Source: a virus. Taken from it: a stretch of DNA of 41,009 nt. A program made the position numbers and the translations under genes. The stretch is from positions 1-41,009 of the IMG/VR virus record IMGVR_UViG_3300005253_000029, one strand, 5' to 3'. A model generated the notes under the pieces. It saw nothing but the letters and a program-made list of their open reading frames with translations. It was not told the origin of the DNA and did no database searches. Below are positions 1,794 to 34,851 of the stretch, piece after piece (the stretch's first letter is position 1; each line of letters opens with the position of its first letter).

Positions 1794-2012
1794 TCACCAC
1801 CTCCATATTGATAAATAATATACTGCTGATAAATAAATTAACCCTGCTAATAATCCTATAGCTATATCATATAATCTATAACTCAACGATAGTTTATTAG
1901 CTTTCCTTTGTTTGCGGTAATCATTCTCAATCCCTTTTATCCATTTACATATTTTTCTTATGTCTTTATTTATTTCATCTATTTGTATTTGTGCTCGAGC
2001 TCCGTTGGTCAT
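1794..2012 (-). CDS. Small membrane-anchored protein
   Basis: 72 residues. A charged N-terminal half (about 1-45), probably cytoplasmic, precedes one hydrophobic segment (about 49-70, [20 protein letters not shown]). GGAG lies just before the ATG, which overlaps the pentapeptide-gene stop (ATGA). Likely an inner-membrane peptide with its coiled N-terminus in the cytoplasm. Role unknown; superinfection exclusion or host takeover would be guesses. Confidence 0.6.
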
Positions 2013-2758
2013 CTTATCTCCTTTATCACTTGGAGTTTGCGTACTCTTATTTTACCATTAGTATTTATAGGTATAGTTATAATATCCTTCCAGTGAACCT
2101 TGACCTGTAATATCCTACCACTACCTTGTTGTCTACACCAAAATTCAGTTGCTACAGATAATCCATAACTGCATTCAGTGAAGATATTATTGTCAACCTT
2201 ATCTACGCTGTATTCTTTGCCGACTTCGTATGTAATCGGATTCGATGAGAAAAAGGATTTGTAGTTATCTTTTACGATTTTATAGAGATAGATATATTCT
2301 TTTGTGGTTTTGATTTTGTAGGTTTTGAGGTAATCATCTAGCGTTAGGATTATTTTAGCGCCACTCAGGTCAGCGCCACTCGGGTTGGCGCCACGCAGGT
2401 TAGCGCCATACAGGTCAGCGCCACTCAGGTTAGCGCCATACAGGTCAGCGCCACTCAGGTTAGCGCCATACAGGTTAGCGCCACGCAGGTTAGCGCCACG
2501 CAGGTTAGCGCCACTCAGGTTAGCGCCATACAGGTCAGCGCCATACAGGTTAGCGCCACGCAGGTTAGCGCCACGCAGGTTAGCGCCACGCAGGTTAGCG
2601 CCATGCAGGTTAGCGCCATACAGGTTAGCGCCATGCAGGTTAGCGCCATACAGGTTAGCGCCACTCAGGTCAGCGCCACGCAGGTTAAAATCCTTTTTTA
2701 CCTTGTCCTTATCAATACCTAATTCTACTAACCTTTCTCTTGTTTCTGTCTTATTCAT
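2009..2758 (-). CDS. Pentapeptide-repeat protein with C-terminal phage domain
   Basis: 249 residues from ATG 2758 (AAGGAGC upstream; an upstream ATG at 2785 lacks a ribosome site). Residues about 1-24 are a helical leader. About 22 pentapeptides of type A(N/D)LxG follow, enough for 5-6 coils of a right-handed quadrilateral beta-helix. The C-terminal 110 residues (from [12 protein letters not shown]) resemble the domain that follows short pentapeptide runs in many phage proteins, with [10 protein letters not shown], a CSYGLSVAT segment and a final [11 protein letters not shown]...IRVRKLQVI. Some pentapeptide proteins mimic DNA and bind gyrase, but most phage ones have no assigned role. Overlaps both neighbours by ATGA. 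Confidence 0.85.
2357..2686 (-). repeat. 22 x 15-bp tandem repeat encoding pentapeptides
   Basis: A continuous array of 15-bp units (plus-strand form CAGGTTAGCGCCATA, with a few substitutions) fills 330 bp, exactly 22 units. Copies are nearly identical at the DNA level, including third codon positions, so the array has grown or been homogenised recently and its copy number probably varies between strains. Confidence 0.95.
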
Positions 2759-2952
2759 TTTAGCTCCTTTTTCTTTTTTAGACACTTAGAGCAACACTCA
2801 TCAGTATAAAGGGTGTTGCTAGACAACATACCTTCTCCTCTATATCTTCCACAAAGAGCTTGACCATTTACGAAACAATGTGCCTTTTTTGCTCTATATG
2901 GGAAGCTCCAACCTATTTTTAGGTCTTTTGTTAATGACATTTCACTTATCAT
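2755..2952 (-). CDS. Small zinc-binding phage protein
   Basis: 65 residues. Cysteines at [11 protein letters not shown] (one pair) and [10 protein letters not shown] (second cluster) make a likely zinc ribbon; the layout 'A-H-C-F ... L-C-G ... C-x2-C-L' is common in short phage proteins of unknown role. Start ATG at 2952 has AGGGAGGATAAG upstream and overlaps the preceding stop (ATGA). Confidence 0.7.
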
Positions 2953-3414: not shown

Positions 3415-3443
3415 TTGACACAGATAAAGTTATATGATATAAT
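3415..3443 (+). promoter_or_regulatory. Rightward early sigma-70 promoter, perfect consensus
   Basis: TTGACA (3415-3420), 17-bp spacer, TATAAT (3438-3443), then an AAAGGGAG ribosome site and ATG 3485. It lies 56 bp from the leftward -35 and back to back with it, forming a divergent control region at 3250-3484, the natural place for an operator. Confidence 0.9.
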
Positions 3444-30399: not shown

Positions 30400-30437
30400 A
30401 ACGCCTATATATAGATTATATCTGTATTATAGGCGTT
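30400..30437 (+). terminator. Hairpin ending the structural operon
   Basis: Ten-bp perfect arms AACGCCTATA (30400-30409) and TATAGGCGTT (30428-30437) with an AGAT/ATCT inner stem. Its right arm overlaps the -35 box of the promoter at 30437. The T-run is short (TTT), so termination may be partial, with possible coupling to promoter use. Confidence 0.65.
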
Positions 30438-30464
30438 TGACATTATAAATAGTTGTGGTATAAT
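30437..30464 (+). promoter_or_regulatory. Sigma-70 promoter abutting the tmRNA-like element
   Basis: TTGACA (30437-30442), 16-bp spacer, TATAAT (30459-30464). The -10 box touches the first G of the tmRNA-like element, so a normal start site 6-7 nt later would lie at the end of its 5' acceptor strand. A full-length RNA would therefore need transcription from further upstream, or an unusually close start. Confidence 0.75.
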
Positions 30465-30527
30465 GGGGCTGAATGATTCGATTGATAGAAATATCAAGAC
30501 TCGCCTTTGAAGGCGACAGCTCCACCA
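30465..30527 (+). ncRNA. Miniature tmRNA tRNA-like-domain element, 63 nt
   Basis: Seen directly: GGGGCTG (30465-30471) pairs over 7 bp with CAGCTCC (30517-30523), including a G.U at the third pair; then A and encoded CCA (30524-30527). A T-arm-like stem TCGCC/GGCGA (30501-30505, 30512-30516) with loop TTTGAA sits directly on the acceptor strand. GATTCGA (30475-30481) lies in the D-loop position, as in ssrA RNAs. TTGATA-GAAA-TATCAA (30482-30497) forms a GAAA-capped stub where real tmRNA has its P2 helix, mRNA-like part and pseudoknots. Known: G3.U70 is the alanine identity pair. Inferred: a reduced tRNA-like domain without tag. An old ssrA fragment is the main alternative. Confidence 0.6.
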
Positions 30528-34663: not shown

Positions 34664-34691
34664 TTGACATTTTCAAAAATGTTGATATACT
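34664..34691 (+). promoter_or_regulatory. Sigma-70 promoter of the 140-nt structured RNA
   Basis: TTGACA (34664-34669), 16-bp spacer, TATACT (34686-34691). The expected start (about 34698) lies some 14 nt before the first base of the structured RNA at 34712, as expected for a short processed leader. Confidence 0.85.
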
Positions 34692-34711: not shown

Positions 34712-34851
34712 TAGTTCGCTCTGTGGCGTTCTGGTGAACAACTGCTTTGCTAGTAGTTAGAACGGTGGAAGGAGATACTGATACACGATGCCCCCACGAC
34801 AAGTCAACCATCGGTCTTGTCCGCAGGTTCAAATCCTGCCAGAGCGGGCTA
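34712..34851 (+). ncRNA. Structured RNA with tRNA-like T-arm and acceptor, 140 nt
   Basis: Closing stem 34712-34723 / 34840-34851 (12 bp, two G.U). Inside lie, almost without unpaired bases between them: hairpin A CGTTCT...AGAACG (34727-34764) capped by AACTGC-TTTGCTA-GTAGTT; hairpin B GTGG/CCAC (34765-34797); hairpin C GACAAG/CTTGTC (34798-34821); and a T-arm GCAGG-TTCAAAT-CCTGC (34823-34839) that stacks directly on the closing stem. T-arm and acceptor look like true tRNA; the rest does not, and no CCA is encoded. Loop B holds AAGGAG and an ATG (34788). No RNA family recognised. Confidence 0.6.

Follow-up and report, generated by a model that had tools for sequence, protein, structure and literature searches.

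The phage genome analysed here (the window, a virus record of 41,009 bases) carries, at positions 30465..30527 on the plus strand, a 63-nt element with the architecture of the tRNA-like domain (TLD) of tmRNA. We call such elements mini-TLDs. As judged by sequence comparison, this identity is well supported: the three helices, the G3.U70 pair, a D-like segment and the CCA are present, and TLD-only RNAs form a broad family in viruses. With moderate confidence, we regard the element as a phage-borne tmRNA cut down to its tRNA-like domain, which would be charged, be bound by SmpB and act on ribosome rescue in the host.

Sequence and fold of the 63-nt element

The element as a whole was delimited by sequence, fold and covariance model, and all its parts are read on the plus strand. 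It begins with the 5′ strand of the acceptor, GGGGCTG (30465..30471; sequence, fold and covariance model), in which G3 of the G3.U70 pair is position 30467. Then follow a D-like segment, AATGATTCGA (30472..30481), recognised by comparison with relatives and by the covariance model, and a P2-like stub of 6 bp, TTGATA/TATCAA with a GAAA cap (30482..30497), based on the fold, the covariance model and the covariation of the homologous stubs. GAC links the stub to a T-arm-like hairpin, TCGCC-TTTGAA-GGCGA (30501..30516; fold, relatives and covariance model). The 3′ strand of the acceptor, CAGCTCC, and an ACCA end complete the element (30517..30527; sequence and covariance model), with U70 at position 30521.

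The minimum-energy fold of the 63-mer is the same as its centroid and contains the three helices (-22.8 kcal/mol, z -3.89; 2/200 shuffles were equally stable), with all 18 pairs intact and the ten bases of AATGATTCGA unpaired. Sequence and predicted fold agree on the 7-bp acceptor with G3.U70, discriminator A and encoded CCA, as well as on the 6-bp GAAA-capped stub, as a sequence-only reading of this DNA had proposed. The D segment has ATTCGA and no D-stem. The family consensus of this segment is GG(A/T)TTCGAC (the final C also being Y), and the window copy has TGATTCGA-T where the family has GG-TTCGAC; TGATTCGA is shared with one relative, L010. The stub, which ranges from 3 to 9 bp in relatives, stands in place of the P2-to-pseudoknot region. 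The mRNA-like domain, with its resume codon and tag, is absent, a total of 63 nt leaving no space for it. A two-piece (permuted) tmRNA was rejected, as the order of 5′ end, stub, T-arm and CCA is the unpermuted one.

No tRNA or tmRNA was called by ARAGORN at 30465-30527. Rfam gave no match to the element, although a 351-nt stretch was searched with E as high as 10, and the RF00023 gathering score (47 bits) was not reached by the window copy, whereas its relatives do match RF00023. Judged as a tRNA, the window copy falls short, lacking an anticodon arm, a D-stem and a match by ARAGORN or RF00005. A second copy of its exact motif was absent from 2.9 million viral contigs and 84,980 genomes.

A family of viral TLD-only RNAs

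Pattern scans led to at least 90 distinct mini-TLDs (63-85 nt) at no fewer than 122 loci and, among those listed, all but one are viral. Scan rows were accepted as mini-TLDs if they had a 7-bp acceptor (7/7 pairs) and a T-stem (at least 4/5 pairs). Of the 15 viral loci that an initial, relaxed pattern picked out, some ten are clear mini-TLDs, and the T-loop is canonical in almost all of these. When 84,980 bacterial and archaeal genomes were scanned with the A variant of the pattern, which is rarer than the T variant, one true member was found, L061, in an Acidimicrobiaceae MAG contig. Since at least 90 distinct sequences came from only a few pattern scans, the TLD-only form is common in viruses. 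BLAST against annotated phages, with the window region and 16 mini-TLDs as queries, gave no informative match.

Several candidates were dropped. Rows L003, L004, L005, L009 and L015, along with most genome matches, turned out to match by chance or to be antisense to tRNAs, and L110 was a false positive in a coding region. Association with tRNA arrays was rejected as a general feature, only 17 of the 103 distinct loci listed having a same-strand tRNA within 300 nt.

The mini-TLDs fall into two size classes, of 63-73 nt with a simple stub and of 76-85 nt with an inner hairpin. In the larger class (L161, L172, L158, L194, L251 and others) a small hairpin sits atop the stub, and a common inner loop has the recurring motif AARNCC..AAGNG; together, inner loop and hairpin may form a second binding feature. 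Two of the 90 listed relatives (the sequence of L018/L020/L039 and that of L204) are called as a longer tmRNA by ARAGORN and as the short form by Rfam. A second TLD-like element (L010:6723-6803; 81 nt, GGGGATG/CATCTCC, 40 bits) lies directly upstream of the L010 mini-TLD, within a 25-tRNA array. An isolated 3′ end resembling that of ssrA, seen in Pseudoalteromonas rubra (L099:2201-2256), is probably an island integration scar.

The relationship to tmRNA is visible at the level of the Rfam model. RF00023 aligns the mini-TLDs across the full model, positions 1-374, with the middle deleted (54-75 bits), and matches were found in 34/34 carrier records other than the window, 30 of them above the curated cut-off. 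The L017 and L038 records, from two related phages, contain a full-length tmRNA (376 nt, 128 bits) in addition to the mini-TLD.

Covariation was scored with 22 short members, aligned with N-padding to keep the register. In this alignment 97.7% of the cells pair, a percentage that is partly built in for the acceptor and the T-stem, both of which served in sequence selection. Both sides change in 14 of the 18 helix pairs, and the acceptor, stub and T-stem covary with a score of 0.73 versus 0.175 in shuffles. Once the alignment was slid, the score was at most 0.18, one column sufficing to lose the signal. The stub, which was not used for selection, covaries in all six pairs. The compensatory changes in the acceptor and stub that the sequence-only reading proposed as a check are thus found among homologues. 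Its description of a miniature tRNA-like domain without an mRNA-like part is upheld by the homologue family, the strong covariation and the Rfam tmRNA matches to homologues.

The pairs G1-C72, G2-C71 and G3.U70 are invariant in the 91 listed sequences, window copy included. Most scan patterns had fixed U70 and left G3 free, such that A3-U70 would have passed. A scan with position 70 free returned 31 loci, among which G3.U70 is present wherever the acceptor and T-stem are complete; the new loci without U70 lack the T-stem and are chance matches. Because G3.U70 was kept in every clear mini-TLD even with position 70 free, alanine charging seems to be under selection across the family. The charging with alanine suggested earlier for the window element is supported at this level; for the window copy itself, the T-arm and the promoter make function less certain.

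The window copy and its aberrant T-arm

Model R1, a covariance model, was built from 22 other viral mini-TLDs with the window excluded. It finds the window copy at full length (34.7 bits, E 5.4e-6), the next-best place in the window scoring 14.7 bits. Other mini-TLDs that did not go into R1 reach 51-73 bits, against about 27 bits at most for tRNAs at those loci, and the window copy is the lowest-scoring of the members tested. A null set of 78 genome loci sharing the pattern reached at most 32.9 bits, L061 apart, and the best-scoring of these loci have a 3′ end of tRNA-like or ssrA-like type whose T-loop is canonical. The score of the window copy, which has no canonical T-loop, therefore rests on the acceptor, the D segment and the stub. 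We conclude that the window copy is very probably homologous to the viral mini-TLD family.

The T-arm seen earlier in the sequence does fold as a 5-bp hairpin, but it is non-canonical. Its 6-nt loop, UUUGAA, is one nt under the canonical TTCRANT loop of 7 nt; its closing pair is C53-G61, where the 90 listed relatives have G-C (89) or G-U (1); and position 56 is U, where the family has C. These three features are departures at near-invariant positions of the family. The canonical T-loop is itself an unfair criterion of membership, the scans having fixed GTTCRA. Elbow contacts between the D- and T-loop are probably weakened in the window copy. In its details the closest relative is L010, which has TGATTCGA, a 6-nt T-loop and the GACTCG linker. 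The sequences of the T-stem and stub are unlike those of any relative, with pairing intact.

Genomic context and transcription

The window phage has podovirus-like head genes (terminase, portal, capsid protein and stabilisation proteins), and its capsid protein has a distant likeness to those of Mx8 and groundwater phages. No close relatives were found in IMG/VR by the neighbouring protein and the terminase, no mini-TLD was found in four distant relatives, and no integrase was found among the window proteins scanned. The element is placed between short genes, all on the same strand.

A sequence scan identified a promoter at 30437..30464 (+), TTGACA-16 nt-TATAAT with an extended -10 (TGG), which matches the consensus at 12/12 positions. 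Its -10 ends at 30464, at a distance of 0 nt from G1, as the sequence-only reading had cautioned. The predicted start lies at about 30471, within the acceptor, so most of the 5′ strand of the acceptor would be absent from the promoter's own transcript, and in the predicted fold of an RNA starting there the acceptor helix is lost. At L251, L260, L172 and L024, which have recognisable promoters, the -10 is 5-9 nt upstream of G1. Because the adjoining promoter should start too far downstream, a full-length RNA from the window would need read-through and RNase P cleavage. Read-through is possible, since no terminator was found to separate the element from the upstream gene. A strong hairpin, AACGCCTATA..TATAGGCGTT, was found by sequence and fold at 30400..30437 (+), upstream of the element; it is not followed by a T-run and is therefore no standard terminator.

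The window has four perfect 12-of-12 promoters of the sigma-70 type, at 3415 (+), 7353 (-), 30437 (+) and 34450 (+), all with an extended -10, and these probably outline the phage transcription units. Elsewhere in the window, a 131-nt tRNA-like RNA at 34717-34847 (+), preceded by a strong promoter at 34664-34691, was missed by ARAGORN and matched RF00005 below the curated score (25.6 bits, E 0.002). It has a 7-bp acceptor, a canonical T-arm, an anticodon-arm-like hairpin with UGC and no CCA, and about 62 extra bases with a hairpin of their own at the variable-loop position. Finally, the C-terminal part of a repetitive protein encoded at 2009-2785 (-) matches RIIB lysis-inhibitor families.

Proposed function and alternative explanations

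Competition with the host tmRNA at stalled ribosomes is the likeliest role of the element, and we infer every step after folding. Transcription running on from the late operon upstream, and then a cut by RNase P, would supply the full-length RNA. Host AlaRS would charge it with alanine, and host SmpB and EF-Tu would bind the charged form. The charged TLD-SmpB could then enter ribosomes stalled at mRNA ends, taking the place of the host tmRNA and, having neither resume codon nor tag frame, would leave the protein untagged. Two outcomes are conceivable: trans-translation would be blocked, with SmpB and stalled ribosomes tied up, or rescue would proceed without a tag or with untemplated addition of alanine. 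The phage may gain from reduced or altered host ribosome rescue and from less or altered tagging of its proteins during infection. Genes for SmpB, release factors (or their domains) and peptidyl-tRNA hydrolase were found in none of the 35 carrier records, window included, some of which are fragments; host factors would therefore be used. An RNA like that of DS6A, a mycobacteriophage with a TLD-only tmRNA, is reported to inhibit E. coli tmRNA strongly, "perhaps acting by titrating SmpB" (PMC4131195, PMC11915505, citing Mao et al. 2009).

The aberrant T-arm, a score of 34.7 bits against 51-73 for other members, the silence of Rfam and a promoter start predicted inside the acceptor could also mark a relic in decay. 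On this view the mini-TLD worked in the past, its T-arm then degenerated, a promoter acting downstream evolved over it, and its RNA is no longer made or used. We consider this unlikely: a neutral relic should show mismatches, yet 18/18 pairs are intact in spite of T-stem and stub sequences unlike those of every relative, and the fold has a z of -3.9. Position between same-strand genes, with no terminator nearby and read-through transcription needed, would also suit a tRNA-like fold that only guides an RNase P cut of the late operon transcript at 30464/30465, leaving a stable end. This we judge improbable, since G3.U70, the D segment and CCA would go unexplained, and they are kept in relatives from many different contexts. 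A likeness by chance, or a copy of a host ssrA left at an integration site, is more improbable still. Although ssrA or tRNA 3′ ends alone score up to 32.9 bits with R1, they owe this to a canonical T-loop; the window match has none and takes in the acceptor 5′ strand, the D segment and the stub, and the runner-up place in the window has just 14.7 bits. Moreover, only one end of ssrA would be expected in an att copy, whereas the window copy has both TLD ends, and no integrase was found among the proteins scanned.

The strict G3.U70 indicates that the charged form matters, as a plain SmpB sponge would need no charging, and tag-less rescue or alanine addition is therefore a serious alternative to titration. 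In tag-less rescue, Ala-TLD-SmpB would take the nascent chain and free or reset the ribosome, the protein staying unmarked, with alanines possibly added. As an account of the element we find this doubtful. We know of no release step for a complex of this type, which counts against it, while the strict G3.U70 of the family, needless for SmpB titration alone, counts in its favour. TLD with SmpB yields polyalanine in vitro without mRNA (PMC3929946), and tag-less rescue has been proposed for mitochondrial tmRNAs that have lost the tag frame and are conserved (PMC11915505), both of which also speak for it. Against this, a TLD-only RNA is reported to be inhibitory in E. coli (PMC4131195, PMC11915505). 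For its part, the full-length tmRNA of the two carriers L017 and L038 fits awkwardly with a simple anti-tmRNA role. The divergent T-arm positions of the window copy, its missing Rfam match, its abutting promoter and the failure to find a close relative of the phage that carries the element also weigh against our main reading.

Competition with host tmRNA is the reading that we retain for the window element. More widely, the family suggests, as far as sequences can tell, that many phages may use a stripped-down TLD RNA to interfere with or reroute host ribosome rescue. A bolder reading, which we offer tentatively, is that viral TLD-only tmRNAs are widespread, strictly selected for alanine charging, and convert host trans-translation into tag-less or alanine-adding rescue that suits the virus, rather than merely sponging SmpB. 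The commonness of the form in viruses makes an old question testable: what phages gain when they interfere with ribosome rescue in bacteria or reroute it.

Comparison with known systems

The sequence-only reading knew of no phage RNA like this, and here the record corrects it: the tmRNA of mycobacteriophage DS6A is "TLD only" (tmRNA Website tmID 11587; PMC4131195, PMC11915505). A 2025 tmRNA database paper counts 79 unique phage tmRNA sequences and mentions a single phage with the TLD-only form, DS6A; besides this phage, two plastids are recorded there as carrying the kind (PMC11915505). The kind itself is thus known; new here are the breadth of the TLD-only class in viruses, apparently undescribed in the literature searched, and the divergent member in the window. 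DS6A and the window copy, likened through the description of DS6A only, are both phage TLD-only RNAs; they come from different phages, and the window side has the aberrant T-arm and abutting promoter.

Among organelles, the CDS-less tmRNAs of Mallomonadaceae plastids (about 65 bp) are like the window copy in size and content as described (PMC11915505), but the window copy is viral. The mitochondrial tmRNAs of jakobids and oomycetes are also without a tag reading frame (PMC11915505); they differ in that the gene is usually permuted and organelle-encoded and a nuclear SmpB co-occurs. Standard bacterial and phage tmRNA (RF00023) and the mini-TLDs have in common the acceptor with G3.U70, the D segment, the start of P2, the T-arm and CCA, whereas the P2-to-pseudoknot region, the resume codon and the tag are all missing in the mini-TLDs. 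The same architecture, both tmRNA ends joined via a capped P2 stub, was used in the artificial Thermus TLD, closed by UUCG, of the SmpB-TLD crystal structures (PMC3929946). That RNA is man-made and the window copy natural, and the viral mini-TLDs are natural counterparts of the TLD constructs from structural work.
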